Source: a virus
Virus record (IMG/VR): IMGVR_UViG_3300038701_002606
Location: 1 to 32,616 of that record
DNA: 32,616 nucleotides
Strand: one strand, 5' to 3'
This document shows, in pieces, positions 3,640 through 32,616 of the stretch (position 1 is the stretch's first letter; each line of letters starts with the position of its first letter). The translations under genes and the position numbers were made by a program. Under the pieces are notes generated by a model. It was not told where the DNA came from and ran no database searches. It worked only from the letters and a program-made list of their open reading frames with translations.

Positions 3640-3651
3640 ACCGGCCTCCTA

Positions 3652-3834: not shown

Positions 3835-4155
3835 CTTCCCCGTGTGATGCCAGTGACTCGACACTATCGCGAACAACGGCCCCAACACCGCCAGCATCGC
3901 CGTCGCCTTCTCCTCGTCCAGCAACTCAAACGTCACCATCGCCGCACCCAATGCCCCGGCAACCTTCCGAATCAGGCTCATCAGCATGTCAACCGAGTCC
4001 TTATTTCGGAACCCCCATGCCAACATCACCACCGACAACAACACGCCGGAAATCGCCTCGATTTGATTCCCCGAATACAGCCCCCACGCCGCCACCGCCG
4101 CGCCCGTCACGTTCAAAAGCTCCCGAACTTGTCCCGAAAATTGCTCCCTAGTCAT
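3652..4155 (-). CDS. Holin-like multi-span membrane protein with C-terminal lipoprotein-like segment
   Basis: The 167 residues from the chosen ATG contain hydrophobic segments at about 17-30, 35-50, 68-80 and 90-102, compatible with a holin. A further hydrophobic run ends in LPSC, a lipobox-like sequence, and a polar tail. I chose ATG 4155 because TTGACG at 4170-4175 sits 14 nt upstream, as in ten other genes of this phage. A GTG at 4182 with GGAGG directly adjacent is an alternative. The place between fibre gene and endolysin supports a lysis role. The last 60 codons look like a separate lipoprotein gene (see 3652-3834). Confidence 0.6.
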   Translation of the reverse strand: MTREQFSGQVRELLNVTGAAVAAWGLYSGNQIEAISGVLLSVVMLAWGFRNKDSVDMLMSLIRKVAGALGAAMVTFELLDEEKATAMLAVLGPLFAIVSSHWHHTGKMPGGGGKLPVVILAFGLVFFLPSCTVTLDESGNPVFGIDPVEAGRVIEQIQEPGVDAPGK

Positions 4156-4178
4156 GAGACGGGCGGGAACGTCAACAA

Positions 4179-6836
4179 TCACACCTCCCTTCCCATCGCT
4201 GTCTGGAAGTCCTGCACAAGCGTTTCGAGAATATCGGCCTCCGCTTTGCTCAAACCATCCCCGATGATGTCCATGGCGGAATTGTGATCTCCAAAGTCTT
4301 CCGCCGTCCCCCCGTTATTACGAGCGAAGAGGTAAAGATTCACGCTCGTTCCATCAACTGCCGCATCCGTGTCATCATACTCGACACCGCCGCTCCTCGC
4401 GAATTGCTCTGCCGCACCAACCCGGCTCGCGAAATTGTGCCCCTCAAAACTCCCCGCATGAGTCGCCAAGACTCCGTTAATTGCCACCCCGTTCAAACCT
4501 GAAACGGTCATCCTCGTAGACGTGTCCACGCGCATCGCCGCACGGTCACCAGTCCCTCCGCTCGCCCCGATGAAATACCCGCCCGTCGTCGGGGAGGCCG
4601 TCCGGCAATAGGTGTAGAGGAACAAAGAATTGACCGAGGTGAAGTCCTCCGTCTTCAGCCCGGTGTCTCCGTAAAACGCGGTCCCGTCTCCTGTCACTCC
4701 ATTGGCATCATGCGTCGGAGTGCCCCCCGTCCAGGTGATATTGGAATTGGCCTTCAGATCGATCGCATGGTCAGAAGCCGACCCTCCCATATAAGGGTAA
4801 ATCGCCCGAAGCTTACTCCACAGTGAATTGTTTTTCAGCCCCAGCACGAACTTGTTCAACGCCGTTTTCTCTGCCTGATCCACGATCCCCGCCGCGGTCA
4901 AATAAGTGTCCGCATCGGAATCAATCGCGATGACAATATCATTCTCAATCGTCCAATAATAAAAGCTCCCGTCGAACTCCCACGACAAACGGTCCAGCTC
5001 ATAGGCCCCCGTCGAGAGCGCAAAGCTTGATTGAGTCGCCGACCCGTCCGGCAAGGTCAGCGTCCTCGATCCCGTCGCATCCTGCTCCACGTAAATCACC
5101 CCCCTCATCCCGTTCTCCGACCCGGAAATTTCCAAGGTCCGGTTTCCGCCAAGGACGAGCTTGTGGGACTGAAAGGTTTTGTGCTTGTCGCAAGTGATCG
5201 TGACCGTCGTATCATCCTCCAGGTCCGCGAATGCCGGTGCGGTCCCCGGTGTCCAAAGCCCGGTTTTTGAAAACTCCGCTATCTCCGCAAAATCCGTCAC
5301 GAACACTCCCTCATCGTTCACCGACCCCGTTTCGCTATTCGTCGATTCACCCTCGCTGCCTTCCACATATCCGTCATGATAAAGCCGCAGCGCGACATTC
5401 TTCCCCGTCGAGTCGAGGTGATGAGCCTGCCAACACATTTCACTGGGAATGCTCCGCGCCCCCCCAGGATACGCCGCGTCCCACGCGTGAGTTTGAAAAG
5501 AGAAGACCCTCGACGGCTTGAGCGTATCACTGGCCGATGCGTAACCCGAAACCAATTTGAGATAGTAAGCCGTCCGCAATGTCGAATTCCCCCCCAGCTG
5601 CATCGGCCCCCCGCAGGCAAAAGCAAAACGCCACCGAGAAGAAAAAATCATCTCTCCCCCGAATTGGTCGTGAGTATTGTCATGGCAAAGCGTGGCCATC
5701 ACCGTATTCCCTCCATCCGGATCATACCAGACCAAGCCCGTGTTCGCCGGGAAGTGAATATTTCCAGGACCCGAAAACGCCGGATCCGCCTCGTCCACTC
5801 CCACATTCAACTCCGCCGTCACGATATTCCCGTCATCGTCCACGAACAACCCGAACCCATCCGACAAACCCAACTCCGCCCGCGCCGTCGCCACCTGTCC
5901 CGCGCTCAACCCCTCGCCGCTCGCCCGCTCAAAGGTCGCCACGAAGTCCTTGATATTCGCATTCCGCGCCTCCCGGCCCCCGCTGAAAGTCGCCCCGTCC
6001 CAGGTAAAGGTTGCCGACATATCCCCCGCTGAAAGCGAGACGGTCTTGCTGTTCCCCGCCGTCCCTTTCAGATCCACCGAGACTGTCAGCGTCGTTGCCG
6101 TCGCTACCGCCGTCAGCTCATCAAAGGCCGCCGGCCTCCCCGCAAATGTCGTATTGACTCCATCCACCGGGCTGTCCCCGTTGATATACGCCTCCAGCTC
6201 CGCCAGGAACTCCGCCACGGTCAGCCCCGTGTTGTTCGCGATATAGCTCGCCCCACTCGCATCTCCCGAGTCCTCGACATACTCCACCTGCGTCCCGTCG
6301 ATCTCCACATAACTCGAATCCGGAGGACTCGCAAAGGCTCCCGTGCTGGTCAGCACCGCCTCCGCACTCAGGGCCACCACCGCCCCGATCGATGGCAACA
6401 GCTCTTCATCGTCCGCCCGATTGACATCATTCACGATGAGGCAATTCAAGGTGTTGGTCGAAAGCGTCCCGTCGTCCGTTGTCCAACTCACCTCCGCCAT
6501 CGCCTCCAGGCTGGCGACATCATTGGAGTCATCTCCATCCACCTCCAGGGCCGCATCGATGGCCGTCATATCAAACGCCGCCGTCCCTTTGTAAATCCCA
6601 TCCTCCAGCGTGAAATCCGTCACCGAAAGCAACAGATCGCCATCATATTTCCCCCGCTCCTTGACTCCATAAACCAAGCTCGCGCCCTCCGGCAAAGTCG
6701 CCGCCGTCACCCCCTCACAAAACTCCACCTCAATCGCCGCCGTGTCCCCTCGTTTATGCTCAAATGGACGCGGCGAAGAAGCCACTCCCCGGGATGTCAC
6801 AAACCGACCCGTCAACAAATCCACCGTGATACGCAT
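4179..6836 (-). CDS. Tail fibre / receptor-binding protein
   Basis: At 885 residues this is the largest structural protein, located last in the tail module where host-recognition proteins lie. Residues 1-150 form a small beta-rich domain reminiscent of the BppU-type N-terminal attachment domain. A threonine/alanine/glycine-rich middle follows. Around 560-640 there is a repeat-type module (HKLVLGGNRTLEISGS, RTLTLPDGS). The last 200 residues resemble a LamG/lectin-like binding domain common in phage tail proteins (SLWSKLRAIYPYMGGSASD; GVTGDGTAFYGDTG). Domain names are by resemblance only. ATG 6836 has TTGACG 14 nt upstream. The stop overlaps the leader of the next gene. Confidence 0.75.
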   Translation of the reverse strand: MRITVDLLTGRFVTSRGVASSPRPFEHKRGDTAAIEVEFCEGVTAATLPEGASLVYGVKERGKYDGDLLLSVTDFTLEDGIYKGTAAFDMTAIDAALEVDGDDSNDVASLEAMAEVSWTTDDGTLSTNTLNCLIVNDVNRADDEELLPSIGAVVALSAEAVLTSTGAFASPPDSSYVEIDGTQVEYVEDSGDASGASYIANNTGLTVAEFLAELEAYINGDSPVDGVNTTFAGRPAAFDELTAVATATTLTVSVDLKGTAGNSKTVSLSAGDMSATFTWDGATFSGGREARNANIKDFVATFERASGEGLSAGQVATARAELGLSDGFGLFVDDDGNIVTAELNVGVDEADPAFSGPGNIHFPANTGLVWYDPDGGNTVMATLCHDNTHDQFGGEMIFSSRWRFAFACGGPMQLGGNSTLRTAYYLKLVSGYASASDTLKPSRVFSFQTHAWDAAYPGGARSIPSEMCWQAHHLDSTGKNVALRLYHDGYVEGSEGESTNSETGSVNDEGVFVTDFAEIAEFSKTGLWTPGTAPAFADLEDDTTVTITCDKHKTFQSHKLVLGGNRTLEISGSENGMRGVIYVEQDATGSRTLTLPDGSATQSSFALSTGAYELDRLSWEFDGSFYYWTIENDIVIAIDSDADTYLTAAGIVDQAEKTALNKFVLGLKNNSLWSKLRAIYPYMGGSASDHAIDLKANSNITWTGGTPTHDANGVTGDGTAFYGDTGLKTEDFTSVNSLFLYTYCRTASPTTGGYFIGASGGTGDRAAMRVDTSTRMTVSGLNGVAINGVLATHAGSFEGHNFASRVGAAEQFARSGGVEYDDTDAAVDGTSVNLYLFARNNGGTAEDFGDHNSAMDIIGDGLSKAEADILETLVQDFQTAMGREV

Positions 6837-17171: not shown

Positions 17172-18737
17172 CTACGCCTCCCCTCCGTCAACTGACAACC
17201 CCGCAGCCTCCCGAAGCTCTTTCTCCCGCTGCTCTGCCCAAATCTTTTCCCGGATGATTTTCTCGCGCTCCTCTCTCCAGTCCCGACCCTGCCTTGAGAA
17301 AAACAACTCTTCCGAAAGCAACCCCTTCTCCAACTGGTCCAGCTCCAACTTCCCATCCCGGCCCCGGTCAATCGTCAGGTCCGCCTGGGGACTCCAGCTC
17401 GCCTTCCACCAGCAATCCACATCGGGCGGAGTTTCAATCCGGCCGGCCTTGATCTCCTTGGCCAAAAAATACATCCAGACCTTCTGACAATCCCTTTGCA
17501 ATCTCGCTTGGCTGTCCTCCACGAACCGCCGCGTTTCAGCCATCACAAACCGCATCCCCGGTCCATTCATGCCGGACGCATCCCACAAAACTTCCGGGCT
17601 CACCCCGCCATGCGGCAACCCCCACGCCATGTCCCGAATCAACCACGACAACAACGCCATGACGTTCGGACTAGGCCTCGTATCGTTCATCGTTTTCAAC
17701 GATTGCCCCGGCTTGAATTCTTGAAACCTCCCGCCTTGAATAAACTCATCCACCCCCAGGATCGTCCCGCTTTCGTCGGTCGATTCGATCCCATCCGGGA
17801 AGTCGCTCGCCCCGTCCCCATCCATTAAAATCTCCGCCGTCTCCGCCGCCGTCTCCAGGAACCCCGTCAGGTCCGCACCCAATGCCCCGGCATCTTCGCC
17901 CCCGCTTTGCTCGATCCACGCCCCGAACAAAGCCGCCACTTTGACCCCGTGCTTCGTGTCCGCGATGATCTCCACCATATCCATGAAATTCGCCACCGCA
18001 TGAGCCAACCCGGACACCTGCCGGGGACGCCCCACACGCTCCTCGTCGGCATGATAAATACACCGATCCCGGGGAACCGTCCCCGCCGCCCGGCCCTTTC
18101 CATCCAGGATCCGAAACCCCGCCCGGCCTCCCGAACGATCCAAAAACACCCCGTCCACCAGGTTCCCCGGCTGGCCATCTTCCGCCTTCCCGTCGCCAAT
18201 TTGAGCCGCCTCGTAACAAACCAACCGGCCCCCACCGTCCGCACCCTCTCCCAGCACCGACAAGCAATCGCCCGCCCTCAACTTCGATGTCCGAACCCAC
18301 GCTTGCCAAGCCATGAAATCAAAACTCCCCGCCGCGTCAAACGCCCTCGGATGCGTAAACCGCGCCGTCATCCGCTCATCCACCTCCTGATTGAATTCCT
18401 CATTACAAGTCGATGCCCGCCCTTTCAGGTTCCCCACCAAACGCGCCACCCCACCAATCGACCGCTTCACAAAACCAACATTCTGCTCCGCCGCTTCAAC
18501 CTTCCCCAAAATTTCCATCCGCTCCGATGGCGAAACCCGCTCTTTCGGATCCAACCGGGGCACGATCACCCGCCCGCGCCTCTCCGACTTCCGGGCCGCG
18601 TCCCAACTCGAAAGAGCTTTCAAAAGCTGCCCCTTCGACATCTTCTTGCCATCCCCCAGGCTCACCGCACCCGAAGCCCCCCGACCCCGGCCACCACGCT
18701 TTCCCCTCTTCCTCGACCTAGAACCTTTTGACGCCAT
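17172..18737 (-). CDS. Portal protein (lambda gpB family)
   Basis: The 521-residue protein would form the dodecameric DNA channel of the head vertex. The N-terminus is very basic (about residues 3-20). Motifs of lambda-type portals are seen at about 120-135 (ERMTARFTHPRAF), at 137-158 (FDFMAWQAWVRTSKLRAGDC) and at 232-247 (ERVGRPRQVSGLAHAV). Near 400 a segment with WDASGMNGPG and METRRFV-like helices follows. Place between terminase and protease agrees. ATG 18737 has TTGACG at 18753-18758 and a second copy at 18760-18765. The C-terminus is 2 bp from the protease start. Confidence 0.88.
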   Translation of the reverse strand: MASKGSRSRKRGKRGGRGRGASGAVSLGDGKKMSKGQLLKALSSWDAARKSERRGRVIVPRLDPKERVSPSERMEILGKVEAAEQNVGFVKRSIGGVARLVGNLKGRASTCNEEFNQEVDERMTARFTHPRAFDAAGSFDFMAWQAWVRTSKLRAGDCLSVLGEGADGGGRLVCYEAAQIGDGKAEDGQPGNLVDGVFLDRSGGRAGFRILDGKGRAAGTVPRDRCIYHADEERVGRPRQVSGLAHAVANFMDMVEIIADTKHGVKVAALFGAWIEQSGGEDAGALGADLTGFLETAAETAEILMDGDGASDFPDGIESTDESGTILGVDEFIQGGRFQEFKPGQSLKTMNDTRPSPNVMALLSWLIRDMAWGLPHGGVSPEVLWDASGMNGPGMRFVMAETRRFVEDSQARLQRDCQKVWMYFLAKEIKAGRIETPPDVDCWWKASWSPQADLTIDRGRDGKLELDQLEKGLLSEELFFSRQGRDWREEREKIIREKIWAEQREKELREAAGLSVDGGEA

Positions 18738-18774
18738 ACCGCGCCCCCGCCTCGTCAACCGTCAACCCCACCCC

Positions 18775-18996: not shown

Positions 18997-19307
18997 CAAA
19001 ACCCCCAAACTCTCCGCGCAAAAGAAATATGCGACACCCCCGGATTCACCATCCCGGAAGCCCCCGCCCCAAGCCGCACCTTGTAATTGTAAGCAAGGCG
19101 ATATTCCTTCAACTTCGTCTCCAACTCCTCTTCCCGATACTCCCCCGATGTCCCCGATTCCTTCATGTTCGCCGCCGTCACCACCACCCCACCATCCCGC
19201 GCATCTTCCAACAGGGCCGACGTCTCATCAATCTTGACGAGCAACTCCGCCTTCGTATATCGCCGCGCCAGGGAAATCACTTGATCAACAGAAACACCGG
19301 AAGCCAT
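18996..19307 (-). CDS. Small head-module protein in gpW position
   Basis: The 103-residue protein (MASGVSVDQVISLARRYTKA) has two helices followed by a basic, Gly-rich end (YNYKVRLGAGASG). In lambda the gene between terminase large subunit and portal is W (head-tail joining). Size and helices fit loosely, but sequence does not confirm it. ATG 19307 has TTGACG at 19323-19328 with the same 15-nt spacer as the portal gene (TGGCGGGGGCGGGGT versus AGGCGGGGGCGCGGT). Confidence 0.5.
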   Translation of the reverse strand: MASGVSVDQVISLARRYTKAELLVKIDETSALLEDARDGGVVVTAANMKESGTSGEYREEELETKLKEYRLAYNYKVRLGAGASGMVNPGVSHISFARRVWGF

Positions 19308-19340
19308 ACCCCGCCCCCGCCACGTCAACCGCGCGAACAG

Positions 19341-19383
19341 GTCGATTCAGCAGACCCCTTCAGGGCTGCTGATCTTGGCTGTT
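19341..19383 (-). repeat. Cassette-end hairpin repeat, copy 1
   Basis: This 43-nt copy is identical at 42 of 43 positions to copy 3 (26177-26219). The core CAGCAG, an unpaired A, CCC, loop, GGG and CTGCTG folds into a hairpin, and GAT/ATC pairs extend it around one unpaired T. The frame that ends other cassettes (NSQDQQP-stop) is also encoded here. It follows the cassette genes at 19433-20265 and precedes the gpW-position gene. Confidence 0.8.
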
Positions 19384-19432
19384 CCCGGACCCGCTCCGCT
19401 CACGTCGTTTCAGATCGCTGGAATGCGGTTGG

Positions 19433-19891
19433 TTACACACCCATAAATTCCGTGTCATGGCTGGTATCAGTTTTGGGGATTTCAACGGTGCGATCTTGCA
19501 CGTCTTCCGCTACGCTCTGCGTCAGGGATTCCGTTCGGAGTGCGGTTGTTAGTTTGCGGGCTGCTCGGTCTATTTCCGCAGCCGCCATTTCGTAAGCGTC
19601 TTCGATGGTCACCGCTTTCACTGCTCCAACATGTTCCTTGTTTCGGAATTTGGCTGCTCGTTCTTTGAGCTTTTCGACCAGCCGTTGCACTCCACCCCAT
19701 CCTTGGTCCGGGAATGGCGGAGCCGTGGTGTGGTCAGTTGTGGCGTCATGTTTCCTCCCCGCTTCGCGGGTCCGGGAACAAGACGCAGGTGTAGACCCGG
19801 TGGAACTCACTCCCGCCAGTCGCTTGATTGCTTCCTTCGCGCCCAGGCCGTTCACTAAATTCTCAATTCGTTGTTTATTTTTCGGTTTCAT
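19433..19891 (-). CDS. Unknown cassette protein
   Basis: The 152-residue protein (MKPKNKQRIENLVNGLGAKE) starts at ATG 19891, preceded by AGAAGGAG, a better Shine-Dalgarno than most phage genes here. It has a Thr/Pro/Ser-rich middle and a helical, charged C-terminal half (LVEKLKERAAKFRNKEH; ITIEDAYEMAAAEIDRAARK-like helix). No family is recognised. Codon use is clearly less GC-rich than the portal or terminase genes, as expected of a transferred cassette. Confidence 0.6.
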   Translation of the reverse strand: MKPKNKQRIENLVNGLGAKEAIKRLAGVSSTGSTPASCSRTREAGRKHDATTDHTTAPPFPDQGWGGVQRLVEKLKERAAKFRNKEHVGAVKAVTIEDAYEMAAAEIDRAARKLTTALRTESLTQSVAEDVQDRTVEIPKTDTSHDTEFMGV

Positions 19892-19950
19892 AAATTCGCT
19901 CCTTCTGGTCATTCTTGTGTTCCATCGGGCACCACAGCTCCGCCATTGGC

Positions 19951-20265
19951 CTAATTACAGAGATTGCGGCAATCCTCCTCTTCCGGCCATTCTTCGCCGG
20001 GGCGCGGAGGTTCCTCTCCATCGATTGTGCGCTCCAGTTCGCGAGCACATCGCATGTAGGCATCAGCGACTCCCGCGATATGGTGTGAGGGCTTTCCCTG
20101 TTCCAGTCGTTTCCCGGCTACCTCATAGCGGGAATCCGCCATCTTCTTGAATCGGTCAACGAGCAAGGCCAACAAGTCCGTGGAGTCCAACACCGCTTTG
20201 CGGCTTGGTGATACCCACCCTTCCTTGTCGTCCCAAACGTCTCCAGGTTTGCTATTCTTGTTCAT
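19951..20265 (-). CDS. Unknown cassette protein
   Basis: The 104-residue acidic protein (MNKNSKPGDVWDDKEGWVSP) has a helical middle (STDLLALLVDRFKKMADSRY) and an acidic C-terminus (PRPGEEWPEEEDC). No family is recognised. The start overlaps the stop of the DUF1508 gene in GAATCATGA, a junction that recurs at 29513 and, as GAATTATGA, at 22666. It belongs to the insertion between DUF1508 and the gpW-position gene. Confidence 0.6.
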   Translation of the reverse strand: MNKNSKPGDVWDDKEGWVSPSRKAVLDSTDLLALLVDRFKKMADSRYEVAGKRLEQGKPSHHIAGVADAYMRCARELERTIDGEEPPRPGEEWPEEEDCRNLCN

Positions 20266-20444
20266 GATTCGTCGCGGTGTGGCTCACGAGTGGCGTTCCT
20301 CACCAACTCCAAATTCCTCCGCGCCGCCCGCTCCCTCTTAAAACCCTCCGAAGAAGCCCCCACAATCCTTCCATTTCGAGCAACGATCTTCCACCGCCAC
20401 TCCCCTCTGACATCCCGGTAAAAAACAACCTTCATCCCTATCAT
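20262..20444 (-). CDS. YegP-like DUF1508 protein
   Basis: The 60-residue protein contains one DUF1508 repeat: FYRDVRGEWRWKIVARNGRI followed by VGASSEGFKRERAARRNLE, a pattern of small YegP-type proteins whose function is unknown. The start ATG at 20444 overlaps the terminase stop (ATGA) and has TTGACG at 20455-20460. MKVVFYRD, three codons later, is an alternative start. The C-terminal tail (NATREPHRDES) may derive from the neighbouring cassette junction. Confidence 0.7.
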   Translation of the reverse strand: MIGMKVVFYRDVRGEWRWKIVARNGRIVGASSEGFKRERAARRNLELVRNATREPHRDES

Positions 20445-22324
20445 CCCCGCCCCCCGTCAATCTGATTCATAAACCGCCGCGCCCATAAATCCCTCCCGAT
20501 AATCGCCATTTTCACACAGTCCCCAATGTCGTTCCCCGGCTCCGATTCCCAACTCGTCCGACCATTCTTCCGCACCTGCCACTCATGACAAAACCCATCC
20601 AGAAAATCCTCATCCGCCGCCGCGTCCACCGGAAGCATCAACTCCCCGAACCTCTCCAACGGCTCCCCATTCTCATCCACCGCATCACGATCCAAGATAA
20701 ACGTCCGATACAACATCCGCCGGTAAGCGTCGTCATCGTAGTGCAACACCTTCACCAACTGGTTTCCCTGCTCTTCCTTCTTAAACACCCTGCACGGCCT
20801 CCAGCTCAAAAGCTCGCCCCCGTTCCGCTGGTTTTGCATTCCTCCCAAACCCTTCGACGGATTAAAAAGCGGACTCAACCGCGCACAATTTTGCCGCACC
20901 TCAAATGTCCGGTGCCCCCCTTCGTCCGTCAAATTACACCGCACCGCCACCTTCCGACCATCCACCCCCATCGCCCCGGCCCGAGCCCACGCCACCAGGT
21001 TCTTCCAGGTCAAAAAATCTCCCCAGTCCGAAACCATCACATCGCCCTCCCGAGAATAACCCACCTTGACCGCCACCCATCGATCATCTTGCGTATCCGC
21101 AAACACTCCGGCCAGGACCGCCGGTTTCGGAAACTCCCCCCGCCGCCAATCGCCACATAAATCCCGCATCATCTCCGCCGATACCCGCCGCGAAACCCCC
21201 TCCTTCCACGGCTCCCCCAGTCGATCCTGAATAAACCCCTTCAGCTTCACCGGATTCCGACCCGCCGCGATTTTCTCCACCGCCAAATCCCCCCATCGAC
21301 TCCCCTCCCACATCGCATACAGATCCGAATAGTGAAACGACATCACCCCGGGCAACCAACCCGGCACCCGCACCGTCTTCCCATCCCGCTCCTCCTCCCG
21401 GTAATTCGTCGCCCGTGCCTCTCCCCGCTCCAACATCCAAGCCTTCTTCTCTTCCGGAATCGCCGCCGCACAATGCCCACATTCGTAATACGTCTCCCGC
21501 CGCACCCGCTCCAAATCCAACTCCCCGAACTCGTCCCGCAAATGCTTATAGCGTAACTGCCCCAACTCCAACACCTGAAACTCCCCGCACTCCGGACACG
21601 GAAGGAAATCCTTGTGCTTCGTCCCCGTCTCATACGCCCCGAAAATCTGCCCATCCTCATCCGTCGGTTTCGAGAAACCAAATTGTTTCCCACTCATCGT
21701 CGCCTTCCCCCGGCTCCCCAGGAGGTGCAAGGTCTGACCTTCTTTTTTCGGCACCCGATGATTGTCCACCTCATCCACCACCACCAACACCACTCCCGGT
21801 TTACTCGCCATCTGCCCCACCGAACCGGCCCCCACAAACCAAACCGTCATCCCCGGCAACTGGATCGTCTCTCCCTTCAGACAATGCTCCGGAAGATTCC
21901 GCAACGTCTCCCGCATCTCCGGAACCCCCCAAAGAAAATCCACAAACCTCGCCGCCACCGATTCCGCATTGCCTTTCGAGTCGATGCCATAGACCACATT
22001 CCCCGGTCTCTCCACCGCACTCTTCGCCATCATCATCAGCGCATGGGCCGTCACCGTCGATTGACTCGACTTCATCCCGAAGCACTTCCGCCACTTCCGC
22101 CCCCGCCCCTCATCCGCAAACACCTCCATAAAACGGCAAACCGATTGCGTCATCTCCCGGGAGTAAGGACCCGCATAATCCGAATTCTCCGAATTCGTCA
22201 GGATGATATTTTTCTCACACCAGTCCCCGAACGACAACACCTCCCTCGAGGTCCACACCCGGTCCAACACCCCATCCACCGCGCCCGAAACAACGCCCCT
22301 CAATTCTAACAACATCTCATTCAT
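20441..22324 (-). CDS. Terminase large subunit (lambda gpA family)
   Basis: The 627-residue packaging motor and nuclease starts at MNEMLLELRG. An N-terminal ATPase carries a deviant Walker A, KSSQST at 85-90 within CFGMKSSQST. As in lambda gpA, the lysine is at the start and the usual GKT is absent. The Walker B is VVLVVVDEVD at about 178-187. A pair of CxxC motifs (CPECGEF and CGHCAAA, about 267-310) is typical of the family. A nuclease region follows with VFADTQDDRW and DWGDF. It cleaves concatemers and drives DNA into proheads. The start region is duplicated at the start of the upstream cassette gene (23043). Confidence 0.92.
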   Translation of the reverse strand: MNEMLLELRGVVSGAVDGVLDRVWTSREVLSFGDWCEKNIILTNSENSDYAGPYSREMTQSVCRFMEVFADEGRGRKWRKCFGMKSSQSTVTAHALMMMAKSAVERPGNVVYGIDSKGNAESVAARFVDFLWGVPEMRETLRNLPEHCLKGETIQLPGMTVWFVGAGSVGQMASKPGVVLVVVDEVDNHRVPKKEGQTLHLLGSRGKATMSGKQFGFSKPTDEDGQIFGAYETGTKHKDFLPCPECGEFQVLELGQLRYKHLRDEFGELDLERVRRETYYECGHCAAAIPEEKKAWMLERGEARATNYREEERDGKTVRVPGWLPGVMSFHYSDLYAMWEGSRWGDLAVEKIAAGRNPVKLKGFIQDRLGEPWKEGVSRRVSAEMMRDLCGDWRRGEFPKPAVLAGVFADTQDDRWVAVKVGYSREGDVMVSDWGDFLTWKNLVAWARAGAMGVDGRKVAVRCNLTDEGGHRTFEVRQNCARLSPLFNPSKGLGGMQNQRNGGELLSWRPCRVFKKEEQGNQLVKVLHYDDDAYRRMLYRTFILDRDAVDENGEPLERFGELMLPVDAAADEDFLDGFCHEWQVRKNGRTSWESEPGNDIGDCVKMAIIGRDLWARRFMNQIDGGRG

Positions 22325-22339
22325 CACTTTGAAAAATCG

Positions 22340-22387
22340 AACAGCCAAGATCAGCAGACCGTTTCACGGCTGCTGATCTTGGCTGTT
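22340..22387 (-). repeat. Cassette-end hairpin repeat, copy 2, perfect 18-bp arms
   Basis: AACAGCCAAGATCAGCAG (22340-22357) is the exact reverse complement of 22370-22387. Inside, an unpaired A and CCGT/ACGG with a TTC loop extend the stem. Relative to copies 3 and 4 (CCCT/AGGG) both members of one pair are changed, a compensatory exchange that preserves the fold. It overlaps the C-terminal codons (NSQDQQP) of the gene 22364-22666 and ends 16 bp before terminase. Confidence 0.9.
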
Positions 22388-22666
22388 CTGCTCATGAATC
22401 AGAGATAGCGAGATAATGGAAAGTTTCTCGCAATCAATCCCTGCTTTTTCTGCAATCCCAGACTTGAGGTGCAAATAATCATCGAAATTCAAAACCTCGT
22501 GAGATCGGTCCGCTATTCCGTCAATATAATTGACCGACCCAAATTCGCCTTGCGTGATCGCTGCGTAATGGTAGACCCAGGCAGAACAATACGGAGAACT
22601 CGAATCCTTAGATTCGCCGGAGTTGGTTTTCATTTCGATTGGTTTTTCTGTTTTTATATCACTCAT
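22364..22666 (-). CDS. Unknown cassette protein with NSQDQQP end
   Basis: The 100-residue protein (MSDIKTEKPIEMKTNSGESK) is acidic with aromatic text (YCSAWVYHYAAITQGEFGSV). No family is recognised. The first residues resemble the cassette protein at 29235-29513 (MSxxxxTEKP) and the last seven are identical to those of 26196-26375. Base composition is much AT-richer than terminase. ATG 22666 overlaps the upstream stop within GAATTATGA. Confidence 0.65.
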   Translation of the reverse strand: MSDIKTEKPIEMKTNSGESKDSSSPYCSAWVYHYAAITQGEFGSVNYIDGIADRSHEVLNFDDYLHLKSGIAEKAGIDCEKLSIISLSLIHEQNSQDQQP

Positions 22667-23043
22667 AATTCGTTCGTTTCGGATCGGTGTCCTTTGACGT
22701 TCGGGTAAGGATGAAGCACAGGCCACCAGCCTCTCGGATCGAGCGTCACCAAAAAACCTTCAACAGCGGCAATGACATGAACTCCGCCAATATGACTCGG
22801 CCATTCATCCACGGGCAGCAAATGATTATCCAGGCGTTTCCACAGTTCCTCACTGGATTCATCGCGCCCTCTGTATATCGGATGCCATCGGTGAGATGGC
22901 TTGAATCCTTCAGGATTCCGCCTTGAATATCCTGTTAAAGCGTTTCTCCTGAATCGGATCAAACCCGAACAATTCTCGGATGGAGAAACCGCTGCCAGCG
23001 ATGCCAACGGCGGGGAGTAGGATTGTTTGTGTGTCTCATTCAT
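22663..23043 (-). CDS. Unknown cassette protein
   Basis: The 126-residue protein (MNETHKQSYSPPLASLAAVS) has several Trp, His and Pro (WKRLDNHLLPVDEWPSHIGG) and no recognised domain. Its leader and first codons (A/T-rich tract, AAAGTAATGAATGAGA) duplicate those of terminase (AAAGTGATGAATGAGA at 22324), so the cassette seems to have been inserted at the terminase start with a copy on each side. It overlaps the next gene by ATGA. Confidence 0.65.
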   Translation of the reverse strand: MNETHKQSYSPPLASLAAVSPSENCSGLIRFRRNALTGYSRRNPEGFKPSHRWHPIYRGRDESSEELWKRLDNHLLPVDEWPSHIGGVHVIAAVEGFLVTLDPRGWWPVLHPYPNVKGHRSETNEL

Positions 23044-23058
23044 TACTTTAAAAAAATC

Positions 23059-23715
23059 TCACTCCCCTGCCAAAGCCTCCCTCAAATACTCATCCCACAC
23101 CAGCTCCCAATCCTTCCCCGTCCGCGTCGCCATCAACTCATCCCGCGCCGCCCGACCCATCTTCGCCCCGCTGATCCTCTCCCTGATCTCTCTTTCTTTC
23201 GGCTCCCAAACCTTCCGGACCCATTCCCGCAACGCCTCGCCGGCCACCGCCAGGCAATCATCATTGCGTTGCACCGCCCGCTTCATCTCCGTAGCATCCC
23301 GCCACCTCTTTCGCGCCGCGTCCGCATTCCTCCCGGAATCCACCACCGCCCGATAGCACGCATGAGCTTCCTCCTCTTCCTGCACCACCCGGGCCAAGGT
23401 CAAAGGCAAACCCAATCGCGCCAACGCCCGCTCCAACAACTCCACCGGCCCCAGGTCAATCGACACCTCCGGAGCATCCGACAACCCCAGCTCGCGCCGC
23501 AATTCCTCCACCCGATCCAGCACCTTCCCCGACGGCTTCCGCCCCACATGAACCTTATACCACTCCACCAACAAAGCCGGATCACCCTCCCACAATGGCG
23601 GCACCTCCCCGCACTTCTCACCCTTCTCCACCCACCCCCGGATCGTCCGGGAATGCACTTGCCACCGCGACGCCGCCTGCATGATTTTCTCTTTATCAAT
23701 CACTACACTCATCAT
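23059..23715 (-). CDS. Terminase small subunit candidate
   Basis: The 218-residue, highly charged helical protein has an N-terminal HTH-like segment (DKEKIMQAASRWQVHSRTIR) as in DNA-recognising small terminase subunits, a leucine-rich middle (VELLERALARLGLPLTLARV) and a basic helical end. It lies next to terminase large subunit, now separated by a 0.7-kb cassette. It would recognise the packaging site, but no cos site was identified. The start may be 23715 or 23712 (tandem ATG). Confidence 0.65.
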   Translation of the reverse strand: MMSVVIDKEKIMQAASRWQVHSRTIRGWVEKGEKCGEVPPLWEGDPALLVEWYKVHVGRKPSGKVLDRVEELRRELGLSDAPEVSIDLGPVELLERALARLGLPLTLARVVQEEEEAHACYRAVVDSGRNADAARKRWRDATEMKRAVQRNDDCLAVAGEALREWVRKVWEPKEREIRERISGAKMGRAARDELMATRTGKDWELVWDEYLREALAGE

Positions 23716-23721
23716 TTTTTC

Positions 23722-26130
23722 CTACACTTCACAAGCCGCCACCTTATCCGCCACCACTCCCAGCTCCGTCACATACTGGACTTTCCGACATTCACTCTCG
23801 ACCCATCGCCGCTTCTTCCGCGCCTTCCAATCCTTCCGGATCCCGAACAACTCCCGCGCAAAGGTCGGCATCTCCCGATGGTGCGGAACCACGTCGTTCA
23901 ATTCACACCAATCGTTATACAGCTCGAAAATCTCATTCACCGAAACCATCAGCTCCGACTGGCCTTCCTTCTCTTCCAACCACCCATCCTTCAGGAACAA
24001 GGACAACCCGGCCCGATGCTTCATCAAGTCCCGTGTCGCCTCCTCGCTCCTCGAGGTATGCACAAATCTCCCACGCTTCTTCAGTCTCCGATATCCCTCC
24101 AGAGCCCAATTCAAGATCCCCGGAAGCTCCGCCTTGAACCTCTCCTGAAACCCATACTCCCGATCCTTCGCCGCAATCACCTTGTCAAAATTGATTTGAA
24201 TAAACCTCCTCTCAAACCCTCCCGATGAATCCGGAGTTGCCGCAATCACATTCGATTCCATCACCAACCTCCCCTTCGGCCGGAAGTCAAAACCCTGCCC
24301 ATACTTCACATCCACCGACACCGGATCCCCCGACACAATCGCCTTAATCAATCCGATATGAGTAAACGATTTCGTCGTCAGTTCCTTCGCCAGATACAAC
24401 GACTTCCCGACGAGTTGACTCCGCAAAAAAGGATTGTCCAATTCGGTCAACTCCAATGCCACCTTGTTATCACTCCCCACCAACCATTCCAACACGTCAA
24501 CACAAGTTGATTTCCCCGTGCCACCATCGCCATAAAAGAAAAAGAATGAGTGATAGTTGATATCCCCCCCCAGGCAATACCCAAACACCTCTTGAATCTG
24601 CGACACCGTCTCTTCGTCATCGTGCCTCCCCGCCAGCCACTTCTTCCACTCCGGACAATCCGCACCCGGCACATACGGATGAGGAATCTGCACCGTCGTC
24701 AAATGGCCGTGCCGATGCGGATAAAGGATCCCCTTCTCCACATCCAACAACCCATTTGCCACCGGGAAACACCCTTCCGGCACGCTGTTCAATTCCTCCG
24801 GAAATTTTACCCGCTCCGATGTCGCCAGCTTCACGATCGATGACACCCGACCCGAATTCAGCACTTCCTCGCCACCTTTCTGCGAAGTCAGAACCCGCCG
24901 CACCTTCCGGTCAATCCACGTCTTCTCCCGCACCTTCGACCAGATCCCCGCCCGACCGTTCCACTTCCAAAAATGGTCGCCACAATAAATCAGATTCTCC
25001 GACCGAACCAAGGTCCTTGCCAGTCGATCTTCCAGGACCCGATACCCGCCGCGGCCACCGTCAGCCACCAAACCCGAAAACAAATCAAGGTCTTCCAACC
25101 CCGCCCGCTCCGCCGCCGCCATCAGGTTCCCCCGTTGCTCATCAATCATCATCCCCACCTCGTCACAATAGTCCCGCCAATCCGACACATCGTGACCCGG
25201 CTCCGCACCACTCCACAAATCATCCAGGAGCAACACCCCCACCCGATCACACACCTCGAACAACTCCCGCGCCACCTTCTCCGCACCCTCCAATCCCGGG
25301 CCATCGAAGTCCGGCACCACCACCACCCAACGATCCCGGAAGAATTTCGCAAACGAATCCTTCCACTTCCCCGCCCCCATCGGAAACGTCGTCGCTACCA
25401 CGTCCCGACCGTCTTCCGATAACTCCTCCAACCGCTCCACATCCTTTTCCCCCTCCACCAAAAAAATCGGCTCCACCCGATCACTCGCCAGGATCTCCGG
25501 CACCCGGTAGGGCACCGTCCTCACGTCCTTCAACGAATAAACCCACTCCCCTTCCTCCACCGTCACACCCGGACGACGTTGCCGGAAATTCTTCGGCTCA
25601 TATCGCAGCGTTTCATGAAGCACCCGCCCCGACTCGTCCTTGTATTGGTAAATCTCCACCACCTCACCCAGTCCACCACCCGATGAAGTACGACCCTCAC
25701 TAGACTTCTTCCCGGTCAATGGCTTCCCCGCCACCCGCTCCGCAAGCGATGGCTTCTCAACCAACGCCCCCACCGGCTTCACCGGATTCTCCGGCACCTT
25801 TCGCATCGGTCGATCTCCCCCACCGGTCCCCCAGGGCACCCCCGCCAACTCATGATAAATCTTGATCGCCTCCCGATTGTCACACCCCCGCGCATGCTGA
25901 ATCAGCGTCACCTCATCGCCACCATCTCCCGACCCGAAATCTTTCCAGAGCCCCACCCCACCATCGATCTTCAAAGAACAAGATGGCGTTTTCTCCTCCC
26001 GGAACGGAGCCAAAACCTTCACCGCCGCCGGACCACCGGCCCAACTCGAAACCTTCTCCGCATCCGGAAGCCCCAGCTTCCCCCACAACACCCACAAGGG
26101 CAACCTCGCCCGACAATCTTCAACGCTCAT
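23722..26130 (-). CDS. Primase-helicase (TOPRIM plus D5/SF3 helicase)
   Basis: The 802-residue replication protein begins with a DnaG/CHC2-like part at about 38-96 (APFREEKTPSCSL, LWKDFGSGDGGD) that lacks the zinc-binding Cys/His set. TOPRIM follows at about 221-300 with VEGEKD and DFDGPG. After a linker, a D5_N-like region around 380-470 precedes an SF3 helicase with Walker A GDGGTGKST (534-542) and later GDPVSVDVKYGQGFDF and NVIAATPDSSGGFERRF. It should synthesise primers and unwind the phage origin. An A-rich leader without clear Shine-Dalgarno precedes ATG 26130. It is longer than typical satellite primases, and N-terminal zinc loss is notable. Confidence 0.9.
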   Translation of the reverse strand: MSVEDCRARLPLWVLWGKLGLPDAEKVSSWAGGPAAVKVLAPFREEKTPSCSLKIDGGVGLWKDFGSGDGGDEVTLIQHARGCDNREAIKIYHELAGVPWGTGGGDRPMRKVPENPVKPVGALVEKPSLAERVAGKPLTGKKSSEGRTSSGGGLGEVVEIYQYKDESGRVLHETLRYEPKNFRQRRPGVTVEEGEWVYSLKDVRTVPYRVPEILASDRVEPIFLVEGEKDVERLEELSEDGRDVVATTFPMGAGKWKDSFAKFFRDRWVVVVPDFDGPGLEGAEKVARELFEVCDRVGVLLLDDLWSGAEPGHDVSDWRDYCDEVGMMIDEQRGNLMAAAERAGLEDLDLFSGLVADGGRGGYRVLEDRLARTLVRSENLIYCGDHFWKWNGRAGIWSKVREKTWIDRKVRRVLTSQKGGEEVLNSGRVSSIVKLATSERVKFPEELNSVPEGCFPVANGLLDVEKGILYPHRHGHLTTVQIPHPYVPGADCPEWKKWLAGRHDDEETVSQIQEVFGYCLGGDINYHSFFFFYGDGGTGKSTCVDVLEWLVGSDNKVALELTELDNPFLRSQLVGKSLYLAKELTTKSFTHIGLIKAIVSGDPVSVDVKYGQGFDFRPKGRLVMESNVIAATPDSSGGFERRFIQINFDKVIAAKDREYGFQERFKAELPGILNWALEGYRRLKKRGRFVHTSRSEEATRDLMKHRAGLSLFLKDGWLEEKEGQSELMVSVNEIFELYNDWCELNDVVPHHREMPTFARELFGIRKDWKARKKRRWVESECRKVQYVTELGVVADKVAACEV

Positions 26131-26176
26131 TTTTTTCTCTTCTTAATTCTGTGTGTTTAAAATTCCGTTAGAAAAG

Positions 26177-26219
26177 GTCGATTCAGCAGACCCTTTCAGG
26201 GCTGCTGATCTTGGCTGTT
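26177..26219 (-). repeat. Cassette-end hairpin repeat, copy 3
   Basis: This differs by one base from copy 1 (19341-19383). It has the stem CAGCAG/CTGCTG with an unpaired A and inner CCCT/AGGG. It encodes the last codons and stop of the cassette gene 26196-26375 and lies 46 bp upstream of the primase start. Confidence 0.85.
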
Positions 26220-26375
26220 GTGCAGAAATTTGGAACTCCGCTTCTCAGATCGTCTCCTTTCATAATCCAGAGCCAGCCCCATAGCCCAAATTCCCAGAAG
26301 CATACCGAAAGCCATTGAAATGACCGCGCACCCAAACAAAATACCTAAAAATTCAGAATGAGAAATAGTGATCAT
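26196..26375 (-). CDS. Small cassette membrane protein with NSQDQQP end
   Basis: The 59-residue protein starts MITISHSEFLGILFGC, has one long hydrophobic segment (about 8-35, ILFGCAVISMAFGMLLGIWA), a basic stretch (YERRRSEKRSS) and the end NSQDQQP shared with 22364-22666. The start ATG overlaps the stop of the previous gene (ATGA). Function unknown. Confidence 0.6.
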   Translation of the reverse strand: MITISHSEFLGILFGCAVISMAFGMLLGIWAMGLALDYERRRSEKRSSKFLHNSQDQQP

Positions 26376-26656
26376 GGATTCATGCTGGTTTGGCAGATAG
26401 TCGGTGCCGTTGCGTTTTCTGGATTGGTTTCCGCGCTGCTGAGAAAAGTAGTTGAGCAATACGTTTCTGCACCACGGGCTCTAATCCTGTTTGGGTGTCT
26501 GACGATTATCATATCCACCATTTTAGTTGCGACACAGGCCATCAGTAACGGCCCAATTAACATACATATCGGCGCCCCACCTCCCTGAATGAAGATGCAC
26601 AACAAGGCGTGCGAGGCAACGCGCGGCAACGTCCTTCTTTGAATTCGATCTTTCAT
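26372..26656 (-). CDS. Unknown cassette membrane protein
   Basis: The 94-residue protein (MKDRIQRRTLPRVASHALLC) has two hydrophobic segments at about 14-27 and 30-52 (ICMLIGPLLMACVATKMVDM) followed by a polar, Cys-containing tail. No family is recognised. The start overlaps the upstream stop by ATGA. It and the following 59-residue membrane protein form the third cassette, between the early genes and primase. Confidence 0.55.
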   Translation of the reverse strand: MKDRIQRRTLPRVASHALLCIFIQGGGAPICMLIGPLLMACVATKMVDMIIVRHPNRIRARGAETYCSTTFLSSAETNPENATAPTICQTSMNP

Positions 26657-27057
26657 TTCGCGCGTGCCTCCACATCGACGTTCTTAAAAAGCCCCCCAAT
26701 CCCCGGTGCCTGATCCACCATCGGTTTCACTTTCGCTCCCATTGTCTCAACCCACTCTCTCCCCCGGACACCCAAACCACGCAAATCCACCCCAGGCTTA
26801 CTCCCCTTCTTCCTCAACAACCGCACCGCATCACCCTCTCTCCCAAGGGCAAGATTAACCTCCGCCCGCCAACAAACATACAACCACCCCGCCCGAGTCC
26901 CACCCGGAAACTCCGGACGCAACACCGCCTCCAGCTCCGCCACATCCTCCGCCGCCAGCAACTCCACCGGCCCATACACCCAATCATCGATCACCCGACG
27001 GATCACCGCCCGATACGCCAAGCGGATTGGAGATTGCGTTTCCCATCCCTCACTCAC
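26653..27057 (-). CDS. Unknown early protein
   Basis: The 134-residue protein reads from GTG 27057 (VSEGWETQSPIRLAYRAVIR), chosen because this GTG overlaps the stop of the acetyltransferase gene (GTGA). It has an N-terminal helical part (VIRRVIDDWVYGPVELLAAE) and a basic, glycine-containing end (KKGSKPGVDLRGLGVRGREW). No domain is recognised. It is the last early gene before the third cassette. Confidence 0.5.
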   Translation of the reverse strand: MSEGWETQSPIRLAYRAVIRRVIDDWVYGPVELLAAEDVAELEAVLRPEFPGGTRAGWLYVCWRAEVNLALGREGDAVRLLRKKGSKPGVDLRGLGVRGREWVETMGAKVKPMVDQAPGIGGLFKNVDVEARAK

Positions 27058-27470
27058 GCCACCCCCCCTTCTCCTACCGCACCAATCACCGGGCGCCAGA
27101 TTTTCACCGGAGCCAACACCCTCACCAAAGTCACCCAACCAACCGGAGGATCCAGAGGATCATCCTTCCGCCACACCTCAAAACCGACAGCCTTGAAAAA
27201 CTCCACCGCGCCCGGAGCCTCATCATAAACGCCCACATCAACCACCGCCAGAGCCGCCCCCGACTCCGCCGCGATTTTACAAGCCCGATCCATCAGCACC
27301 CGACCAATCCCATCACGCCGATACCCAGGAGCCACACAAAGCCCCCCGATCCTCGCCAGCCCACCCTCTGAAGGACGAATCACCACCATCCCCCGGCAAG
27401 CCCACCGATCCCGCCATTGCAAGACCACCCGACGCTCCCCACAGTCCCAGGTTGTAAATTCCTCGAACAT
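27054..27470 (-). CDS. GNAT-family N-acetyltransferase
   Basis: The 138-residue protein has the GNAT core. A strand-rich N-terminus is followed by motif A at about 46-59 (VAPGYRRDGIGRVL), the acetyl-CoA-binding R/Q-x-x-G-x-G/A signature, then helix DRACKIAAESGA and motif B-like text EAPGAVEFFKAVGFEVW. It transfers acetyl from acetyl-CoA to an amine, but the substrate is unknown. It is coupled to the ParB-like gene through TGATG. Phage GNATs can modify host proteins or DNA, but nothing here identifies the target. Confidence 0.85.
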   Translation of the reverse strand: MFEEFTTWDCGERRVVLQWRDRWACRGMVVIRPSEGGLARIGGLCVAPGYRRDGIGRVLMDRACKIAAESGAALAVVDVGVYDEAPGAVEFFKAVGFEVWRKDDPLDPPVGWVTLVRVLAPVKIWRPVIGAVGEGGVA

Positions 27471-28834
27471 CAGGAAACCCTCCCGCGCCAGAATTCCAGA
27501 ACCCCGAAAGCCGATGCCAACCGGATCCCCCCACGGTCATCCACCGCCAACCCCTCCAGACACCACCACACCACCACCGGAAGAAACGTCTCAAACTCCG
27601 ACAACACAAACTCATCCAACTCCCCGGGATCAATTCCCAGAAGCCTCTCCGCAGACAACCGCCAATCCGAACCCGAAAAATCCAGCACATCCACCGCCAA
27701 CCGGGCCGCGTCCGCCCGAAACTCGACCGACAACAAAAGCCAAGGATTCCACTCACTCTCTCTCGTCACCAGCTCCGCCGGAACCTCCACATCGACTCCG
27801 CCGGAATCATCCTCCTTGTCCGAATCATCATCCAACTCCCGACCCTTCAACCTCGCCCCCAACACATACTCCTCCCCCGACTCCTTCCGGCCCCGCTCCG
27901 CATCCTCCACCAGCGAACGGTCCACCACTCTCCGGACATTCCCGCACCCCTCTTGATAACCCCCCACCGGCACCACCAGAAGCGGCACCCCATGAAGCTT
28001 CGCCAACGTCCCCCAAGTCACCGCCGCATCTTCCGGACGCGCCGCCAATCCCCCCACCTGATCCGTCTCCAACTTCCAGGGCGAAACCGCCTCACCATAA
28101 GGCCGGACATATTTTGCCCAGTCCGCCGGATCATCCAAAAACATACACCGCTCAAAAGCCTCTTGCCCACTCACTCCAGACACCCATGACCGCCATCCTT
28201 CCAGGTTCCTGCGGGGCTTCTCATACTTCTCCACCACCATCCGATTCACCTCCTCATCAGAAAGCACCTCCCCCAAAGAAAGCACCGTCTGACCCAACGA
28301 CTCCCGGACATCCTCTTCCTCCACCTCCATCACCCGGCGAACCGATGACAACCGCACCAACCCCTTCCCCACTGCGTCCCGCAATGGCTCCGGAGCCAAT
28401 TTCAGATTCAGCCGATCCTGAACCCAGGACACCCCCCGGCCCAACTTCTTCCCCACCAAATCCGCATCCCATCCCGTCCGCTCCGAAAGCCTCTCGACTC
28501 CCTCCGCCGACTCCACCTCAGACAACCCGGCCCGCTGGTCATTCTCGACAATCTGAATCTCCAACACCTCCTCATCCGACAACTCCCGAACCAAACAAGG
28601 GACCGCGCCCATCCCCAACAACTTCGCCGCCCTCCATCGCCGCTCCCCGGCCACAATCTCCAACACCCCATGCGCACAAGCCCGGACAATCAGAGCCTGC
28701 TGAATCCCCACCTCCTTCACCGACGCCGCCAACGCCGCCAACTCCCCATCATCAAAATCACGACGCGGATTTGTCGGGCTCTCCGACAAAAGATCCACCG
28801 CCACCATCTTCACTTCTTCATTCTTCTCACTCAT
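27470..28834 (-). CDS. ParB-like protein without partner ParA
   Basis: The 454-residue protein has a ParB/Spo0J N-terminal domain at about 10-110 with SPTNPRRDFDD, GIQQALIVR, and the CTPase/arginine motif GERRWRAAK at 63-71. A KorB/ParB-type HTH follows (WDADLVGKKLGRGVSWVQDR). The long C-terminal half has a strongly acidic linker (LDDDSDKEDDSGGVDVEV) and a final helical domain of unknown type. Partition or transcriptional control of phage DNA is plausible. No parA gene is seen. ATG 28834 has AAGGAAG upstream; a GTG at 28861 is an alternative that would overlap the previous stop. Confidence 0.85.
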   Translation of the reverse strand: MSEKNEEVKMVAVDLLSESPTNPRRDFDDGELAALAASVKEVGIQQALIVRACAHGVLEIVAGERRWRAAKLLGMGAVPCLVRELSDEEVLEIQIVENDQRAGLSEVESAEGVERLSERTGWDADLVGKKLGRGVSWVQDRLNLKLAPEPLRDAVGKGLVRLSSVRRVMEVEEEDVRESLGQTVLSLGEVLSDEEVNRMVVEKYEKPRRNLEGWRSWVSGVSGQEAFERCMFLDDPADWAKYVRPYGEAVSPWKLETDQVGGLAARPEDAAVTWGTLAKLHGVPLLVVPVGGYQEGCGNVRRVVDRSLVEDAERGRKESGEEYVLGARLKGRELDDDSDKEDDSGGVDVEVPAELVTRESEWNPWLLLSVEFRADAARLAVDVLDFSGSDWRLSAERLLGIDPGELDEFVLSEFETFLPVVVWWCLEGLAVDDRGGIRLASAFGVLEFWRGRVS

Positions 28835-28857
28835 CTCAAAAATCACTTCCTTCAAAT

Positions 28858-29121
28858 TCACTCTACACTCCCACTATCAAAACTCTTCAACGCCTCGCGC
28901 ATCAACCGCAACGGCCTCCGGGCCGCCCCCAGGCAATGCTCACAAGGATGAATCGCAATCACCTGCTCCACCTTCGCCGCTCCCGTTATCGAACCATCAA
29001 ATTGACCGCCTGATTTAGGCTTGTCATAACTCGCATTCAAAGGATTCCCGCAATCCGTGCAGACCAGGACCGACACCAAATGCGTCCGCCCGAAATCCTT
29101 CATCTCACGCGGCACACTCAT
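28858..29121 (-). CDS. Small zinc-ribbon-like protein
   Basis: The 87-residue protein has two Cys pairs, CTDCG (about 21-25) and PCEHC (about 59-63), spaced as in zinc ribbons, with a basic C-terminal helix (ARRPLRLMREALKSF). It likely binds zinc and perhaps nucleic acid. No specific family is recognised. Its ATG overlaps the stop of a 29-residue membrane peptide upstream. Confidence 0.6.
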   Translation of the reverse strand: MSVPREMKDFGRTHLVSVLVCTDCGNPLNASYDKPKSGGQFDGSITGAAKVEQVIAIHPCEHCLGAARRPLRLMREALKSFDSGSVE

Positions 29122-29207
29122 CGCGACCTCCTCTCACCAACCTCACACCGCTCCCGCCGCATCACCAGGAACAACAAAACCCCAACAATAAAAAATAATT
29201 CACTCAT
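29118..29207 (-). CDS. 29-residue membrane peptide
   Basis: From ATG 29207, MSELFFIVGVLLFLVMRRER and then CEVGERRSR, with stop TGA overlapping the ATG of the zinc-ribbon gene as ATGA. The hydrophobic segment covers residues 4-16 and is followed by a basic cytoplasmic tail. The four-base overlap, shared with most genes here, makes it a likely gene. Function unknown. Confidence 0.45.
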   Translation of the reverse strand: MSELFFIVGVLLFLVMRRERCEVGERRSR

Positions 29208-29234
29208 ATCAAAATCTCTATCTTAAAACTAAAA

Positions 29235-29513
29235 TCATTCCGAACATGTCAATTCAGCAGACCCTTCCAGGGCTCCTGATCCTTGACTGTTCGCTGTGGA
29301 ATAAATAAAACCTTGATGACTTCTCATGTAGCCATTGTCGTAGAGTCGATCAAAAACCACGCCTTCAGCCGTCGTAAGACTGTGCCAGTCTCGACCGTGC
29401 CAACATTCAGCAATTAGTGTTTCAATCGACTTCAGCGAACAAGGCAGCTCACGCGAATCCTGCTCTCTTTGTGGTTGATCGGTCGGTTTCTCAGTTGATA
29501 GGGTATTACTCAT
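29235..29513 (-). CDS. Unknown cassette protein reading through hairpin copy 4
   Basis: The 92-residue protein (MSNTLSTEKPTDQPQREQDS) has CWHGRDWHSLTTAEGVVFDR in the middle and ends by translating through the hairpin repeat (NSQGSGALEGSAELTCSE). Relative to the other copies, a one-base insertion shifts NSQDQQP-stop into a longer frame. The first residues resemble 22364-22666. The start overlaps the upstream stop within GAATCATGA. Function unknown. Confidence 0.6.
   Translation of the reverse strand: MSNTLSTEKPTDQPQREQDSRELPCSLKSIETLIAECWHGRDWHSLTTAEGVVFDRLYDNGYMRSHQGFIYSTANSQGSGALEGSAELTCSE
29248..29291 (-). repeat. Cassette-end hairpin repeat, copy 4 (diverged)
   Basis: This 44-nt copy has about five differences from copies 1 and 3, one of them an insertion. 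The inner stem CCCT/AGGG and the unpaired A are kept, while CAGCAG faces CTCCTG with one mismatch. It seems to be the oldest or least constrained copy. Confidence 0.75.
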
Positions 29514-32202: not shown

Positions 32203-32541
32203 ATGAGCAAAACACCCAAATCCGTATCCCGCGCCCTCGCCCGACTCGACAAACCCACCCGCAAGCTATTCCACCAGGAACTCCGACCGGAGCAAAAATC
32301 ATTCATCCTCGCCTTCTTCGCATGGTTATTCCTCGGCTGGCACTATCTCTACCTCCGCCGCCCTGGCACCCAGCTCGCCTTCTGGATCACCGCCGGGGGT
32401 CTCGGCCTCTGGTGGTTCCTCGATCTCCTCCGCCTCCCCGGCCTCATCCGCAGACACAACCACACCGTCGCCCGATCCCTCCTCGCCCAGTTCCTCCAAC
32501 TCCACCCAATATCATCCCCACCCAACCCCAAAACCCCCTAA
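32203..32541 (+). CDS. TM2-domain membrane protein, complete copy
   Basis: The 112-residue protein (MSKTPKSVSRALARLDKPTR) has a basic N-terminus and two hydrophobic helices at about 33-49 (SFILAFFAWLFLGWHYLYL) and 55-77. The RRPGTQ turn separates them, and a basic RRHNHTVAR segment follows. This fits the TM2 family, whose members act in the bacterial inner membrane in poorly known ways. It is paralogous to the fragment at 1-205. Start: ATG after CCCGCATC without Shine-Dalgarno. Host flank or phage accessory gene cannot be decided here. Confidence 0.75.
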   Translation: MSKTPKSVSRALARLDKPTRKLFHQELRPEQKSFILAFFAWLFLGWHYLYLRRPGTQLAFWITAGGLGLWWFLDLLRLPGLIRRHNHTVARSLLAQFLQLHPISSPPNPKTP

Positions 32542-32616
32542 ACTCCCAACCCCACCCAACATCCCCCAGGAAAAACAATCCCCGCCCCCATCCCACACAA
32601 GCATCATGCGTCTTCT

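Follow-up and report, generated by a model that had tools for sequence, protein, structure and literature searches.

How do phages, which turn over small genes fast, acquire such genes precisely between essential ones? This question is raised by the IMG/VR virus record IMGVR_UViG_3300038701_002606 (32,616 nt; the whole stretch is referred to here as the window), in which four groups of small genes end in copies of one hairpin. Judging from sequence, we assign a probability of about 0.63 to the reading that these hairpins are attC-type recombination sites of phages, and that inverted cassettes would be inserted beside a resident short site with an integrase supplied in trans. The first-pass annotation had likened the hairpins to integron attC sites or a new element of single-strand recombination. 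This likeness is supported by covariation, by the attC spacing of extrahelical bases, by unoccupied sites in relatives and by one base-precise insertion, and also by cassette genes that are common to unrelated phages in new contexts.

The four hairpin copies (S1 to S4, Table 1) are all present on the minus strand, and their 18-nt left arm gave four matches at ≤3 mismatches, compared with 0.01 expected from shuffling. Inspection bore out the 42/43 identity of copies 1 and 3 and the compensatory CCGT/ACGG change in copy 2, and all four folds leave one stem base unpaired, a coding-strand T that had been described as an A on the plus strand. The peptide end NSQDQQP-stop, said to be encoded by the hairpin itself, is in frame in copies 1, 2, and 3 (AAC-AGC-CAA in S1), and a 1-nt insertion makes copy 4 read NSQGSG... 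instead. S2 is a nearly perfect palindrome, in which only the T of the extrahelical bases is kept; its right arm looks rewritten from the left arm, with the spacer and one extrahelical base gone. The junctions noted at gene starts were also recovered, with GAATCATGA at 20265 and 29513 and GAATTATGA near 22666. The reported AT-richness of the cassettes applies to cassettes 2 to 4 (47 to 48% GC compared with 58% outside, at about the 5th percentile given their lengths) but not to cassette 1 (55.7%).

Beyond the window, the conserved outer part of the hairpin with a free center (AACAGCCAAGATC...TCGACC) was detected in 31 IMG/VR contigs, 24 of which were judged real by inspection, and the genes upstream of the hairpin vary between copies. 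The helix covaries: 95.4% of cells are paired, 61 cells carry double changes, and 8 pairs show compensatory changes, giving a covariation score of 0.414 compared with 0.158 for shuffled and ≤0.057 for slid alignments. A search of genomes from 84,980 species with the window-derived core yielded one real case, in a metagenome bin (G001) with three contigs carrying the hairpin family. One of these, C148, carries genes of a large phage, for replication and for tail-like proteins; it was considered as a host chromosome and rejected, since it looks like a jumbo phage. Rfam 15 contained no match to the family above gathering score, annotated phages and plasmids no match to the one hairpin queried, and beyond chance matches, narrow hairpin patterns retrieved from viral contigs only one site of partial similarity, in L006.

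Of the four window cassettes, at least three (one offering only a weak test) begin at a second, longer hairpin that was overlooked in the first pass. It contains the stop codon of the preceding gene and the start codon of the next. These long sites were exposed by flank comparison across contigs, in which common blocks are delimited by GAACG and CTTGTTC. Scanning for AACG...TTGTT with complementary arms returned 24 pairs at ≤ -22 kcal/mol, compared with 4 expected from shuffled arms; a greedy arm scan proved too strict. Of 41 long-site candidates, 11 were discarded by hand, a subjective step, leaving 30, and the candidate list includes three in the window (L1, L3, and L4). The big loops of the long sites make their fold z-scores uninformative. 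The arms of L3 are near identical to those of a site at position 1053 of L059, and a 51-nt segment of the decayed site at locus 1 matches L073 at 90% around CTTGTTCCCGG.

Both site types are imperfect palindromes with AAC and GTT end boxes, a stem interrupted by an unpaired central spacer, two extrahelical bases, and a variable terminal structure, as in attC sites. With AAC paired to GTT, the right arm carries single-base bulges at distances of 9 and 16 nt ahead of GTT in 25 of 30 short and 25 of 30 long sites, the latter having been picked by arm energy ahead of any bulge count. Both bulges at attC spacing are thus found on the right arm in 50 of 60 sites and on the left arm in none, where a single bulge occurs in one site. 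The base at position 16 is T in all 56 sites having one, and shuffled interiors reproduced the bulges in 0 and 1 of 150 cases. The attC feature of two or three extrahelical bases set at fixed positions in the L stem is therefore present, with the spacing of the aadA1 attC, and this control site, taken from a plasmid, shows the identical 9/16 spacing on its left arm. The extrahelical bases of attC are defined as lying on the R''-L'' arm, on the side of the gene (Bouvier 2009, PMC2727003). The bulges of the phage sites lie on the opposite arm, and the sites are therefore mirrored relative to their genes, so that the phage coding strand resembles a classical attC bottom strand.

Could these structures act in RNA only, as terminators or as translational stop-restart signals, with no role in gene movement? 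Their folds are stable, a stop codon lies within every site, and start codons lie within the long sites, all of which would suit such a function. However, no consistent U-tract directly follows the GC stem downstream of the hairpins, the conserved unpaired spacer and the extrahelical bases would be superfluous for a terminator, and the borders of exchange match the boxes. We consider this explanation very unlikely, and the hairpins differ from mere terminators in being associated with cassette gain and loss.

This association is apparent among relatives. In phage C75C1, the gap between the portal and scaffold genes is 0.28 kb and holds no array, whereas relatives carry 2 to 4 kb with sites there, different in content in each. 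L070 lacks the hairpin, and its homology with hairpin-bearing relatives starts just after GTTC. The cleanest event is a 415-nt insert in an HNH_3 gene of L068, which is uninterrupted in L061, L033, L050, L053, and L070. The insert consists of a long site and the open reading frame (ORF) downstream of it, has AAC at both borders, and its ORF continues in frame into the remainder of the HNH_3 gene. In addition, a 241-nt cassette with AAC-to-AAC borders is 97.9% identical between L040 and L043, and in related phages homology begins at the AAC of the short site, with unrelated sequence upstream.

PeSL regulatory cassettes of T4-type phages, composed of a promoter and a terminator and moved by homology, are likewise small stem-loop elements tied to the shuffling of small phage genes, and they have no attC anatomy. 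If the present hairpins were regulatory elements of this kind, they would serve as intergenic patches of homology through which homologous recombination shuffles small genes. This would fit the observations that the unit in common is often the 47-nt hairpin alone, with differing flanks, and that hairpin-free turnover of small genes is also common in these phages. It would leave unexplained the two extrahelical bases at fixed attC spacing, and the target of the HNH insertion has no hairpin, only AACAAC. Moreover, sequence identity is not what is conserved, because the stems vary by compensatory change. Altogether, a PeSL-like origin appears quite improbable.

The order and phase of the sites add a further layer. 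In all 18 mixed arrays, long sites come first and a single short site comes last, and the spacing between sites is commonly about 200 nt, equivalent to one small ORF. The permutation value for this order, 1e-5, overstates independence because several arrays share one place in related phages. Taken as a codon, AAC defines the reading frame that stays open farthest upstream in 27 of 33 short sites and 32 of 41 long candidates, and 26 of 30 long sites contain a start codon (ATG or other) whose frame crosses the right box and continues as the next ORF.

Building on the observed structure, spacing, borders, order, and phase, we propose a model in which the recombinase, the strand, and the direction of movement are putative. 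The mobile cassette would consist of a long site and the ORF downstream of it, the long site supplying the start codon. The cassette ORF would have no stop codon of its own and would end at the AAC of the next site, read as an in-frame Asn codon, with that site providing the stop. The short hairpin would be a resident site attached to a phage backbone gene, with cassettes piling up upstream of its AAC box. An enzyme of the integron integrase type, a tyrosine recombinase probably provided by the host, would exchange the coding strand folded as single-stranded DNA, presumably with crossover at AAC. This corrects the initial description of cassettes ending in the hairpin: the end hairpin is probably a resident anchor, and the mobile unit the longer hairpin with its downstream gene.

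Several findings weigh against this model. Some common blocks and exchanges break at GTT rather than AAC, and of about 14 insertions detected among relatives, one uses these sites. The canonical box GTTRRRY was found in 0 of 60 sites and RYYYAAC in 2 of 60 (0 of 30 short, 2 of 30 long), with the AAC/GTT core present. Neither an IntI integrase nor an attI site was found in the window or in 24 related records, most of them fragments, and 22 of these 24 lack a tyrosine recombinase; the integrase of the window is an ordinary phage enzyme. Arrays of the hairpin in host chromosomes, which had been suggested as a place to look, were not found: in about 440 sampled genomes (148 and 292, from two phyla), which may not contain the hosts of these phages, nothing outside G001 matched. 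Given that no integron integrase turned up, it is a guess that the host supplies one, and since the canonical R boxes fail as well, we regard the system as a variant and not as a proven integron.

The breaks at GTT are what ordinary integron cassettes would produce, in which the gene travels with a 3' hairpin and crossover takes place at GTT; the phage arrays would then be clusters of attC sites lacking integron integrases (CALINs). The visible order of gene followed by hairpin and the hairpins shared between contexts with unrelated genes on both sides agree with this explanation, and CALINs are known from phages (PMC9892861). Yet the extrahelical bases are on the wrong arm for this orientation, the clean insertion comprises a long site and its downstream ORF from AAC to AAC, and the short-type-last order and the fixed phase of AAC would go unexplained. 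Ordinary cassettes therefore seem unlikely. Recognition of the hairpin, with its extrahelical T, by a HUH (Y1) transposase or as a REP/RAYT-type site is hardly credible in view of the two end boxes, the two bulges at attC spacing, and loops of 3 to about 100 nt; such a nuclease was not seen near the arrays, though no systematic search was made.

Table 1. Sites and small genes at the four cassette loci of the window
Feature	Position	Strand	Basis
S1, short attC-like site, terminal hairpin of locus 1	19335..19383	-	R1 74.2 bits, fold
Cassette gene, 159-aa ORF	19433..19912	-	homolog in L073 array, 37.7% over 69 aa
Decayed long site separating the two genes of cassette 1; lacks AAC, retains right part	19777..19950	-	
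Cassette gene, 104 aa, start codon within L1	19951..20265	-	
L1, long attC-like site, stop/start GAATCATGA in loop	20171..20297	-	arm duplex -21 kcal/mol; fold with right-arm bulges
S2, short site	22339..22387	-	R1 51.7 bits, fold z -10
Cassette gene ending NSQDQQP-stop	22364..22666	-	homologs in L068 and L041
Weak candidate long site, locus 2	22584..22702	-	by eye; folding gives no support
First small gene of locus 2, 126 aa	22663..23043	-	
S3, short site, right box degenerate (TTTTC)	26171..26219	-	R1 69.4 bits
Cassette gene, small hydrophobic protein ending NSQDQQP-stop	26196..26375	-	
Possible small membrane-protein gene, opposite strand of cassette 3	26382..26588	+	
L3, long attC-like site, contains stop codon of 161-aa gene	26601..26682	-	arm scan, fold
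Cassette gene, 92 aa, start codon within L4	29235..29513	-	
S4, short site, one-base insertion GGATC	29242..29291	-	R1 54.6 bits
L4, long attC-like site, stop/start GAATCATGA in loop	29438..29563	-	arm scan, fold

The cassette proteins have no match in Pfam, PHROGs, or PADLOC. The 159-aa gene of locus 1 and its L073 relative match at their ends on both sides, and the NSQDQQP gene of locus 2 has relatives in two other arrays, in each of which AAC links the gene to a different type of site. The window encodes a gpA-type terminase, a lambda-type portal, a Clp-type protease, a primase/helicase, ParB, and a phage integrase. Its terminase has its best full-length match among annotated phages in an Akkermansia phage (23% identity), and a terminase search of IMG/VR revealed no close relatives. 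In G010, which is distantly related (35% in the portal, 30% in the terminase), the terminase stop codon is directly followed by a short site, ahead of the next gene and the portal; at this position, the window has three small genes and a long site.

Other repeats were observed in the window and in other contigs. Direct copies of about 260 nt, 72 to 77% similar, occupy the record ends (21-289 and 32348-32610) and are apparently paralogous host genes flanking the prophage on both sides. The sequence GGTTGACG.GGCGGGGGCG.GGTATGGC at 18731-18758 and 19300-19328 stands ahead of two successive genes, duplicating a translation start region around two small genes that adjoin the portal. At locus 2, the entire insert has the terminase start region on either side as an imperfect 24-nt direct repeat (22316-22338 and 23036-23059; GATTTTT..AAAGT.ATGAATGAG). 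This duplication and one in L026 suggested target-site duplication or retro-like insertion, which was rejected, as most other loci are without one. A different kind of gene insertion adjoins the array in L070 (about 6411-6580) and in L035 (about 310-480), where a 20-nt duplication, AAACAGAAGAACCGTAGAGG, flanks a small gene. The small-gene array of L026/L023 (G001:C152) carries GGAACTCCGATATAATTAGGTATG before each gene as a repeated start-associated sequence, and its proteins contain HREDGPA repeats and end in ...VDQLKIKK.

If our interpretation is true, cassettes with built-in starts and stops would give unrelated phages a concrete means of exchanging genes, open to testing and perhaps extending to host integrons, and would predict where new phage genes are located. 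At somewhat less than even odds, these sites might represent a distinct integron-like lineage in several kinds of environmental phages, with a 5' site, codon-phased starts and stops by which any cassette could be joined to any other or into a gene, and short resident landing sites at gene junctions, the whole being served by some recombinase. Searches for attC that demand canonical boxes or the usual gene orientation may overlook such a class of sites.

The phage sites resemble the integron attC, as represented by aadA1, in their end boxes, spacer, two bulges, and variable terminal structure and in the small genes between sites. They differ in failing the canonical boxes, in bearing the bulges on the other arm relative to the gene, in containing start and stop codons with a fixed AAC phase, and in having a separate terminal short type. 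Phage CALINs, described as attC clusters without an integrase that recombine with IntI1 (Qi et al. 2023, PMC9892861), share with the present arrays the missing integrase and one small ORF per site. The placing of at least two sites near each other without an integrase, as in a CALIN, is seen here too, but the sites fail the box consensus, and the arrays are at most candidate CALINs. Known phage CALINs have canonical boxes and are detected by standard attC models, whereas the window family occurs as single sites or short runs at several junctions of one genome, including between structural genes. A cassette array of roughly ten one-gene cassettes in another viral contig, L006 (IMGVR_UViG_3300022542_000228, about 200-6600), has two sites that contain AACAGCCAAG[AC]TCAGCAGCC, shared with the left half of the window hairpin, and right-arm bulges in several of its sites, but its boxes are integron-like (GCCTAAC and GTTAGGC types) and its genes have their own ribosome sites after the box. 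As phage attC clusters that recombine with IntI1 are already known, the concept in general has precedents. What appears to be new, within the searchable literature, is that the sites are mirrored, have a stop/start function, include a terminal short type, and are dispersed in their placement. Unrelated phages seem to share a system of gene-cassette exchange that is wired backwards compared with integrons.

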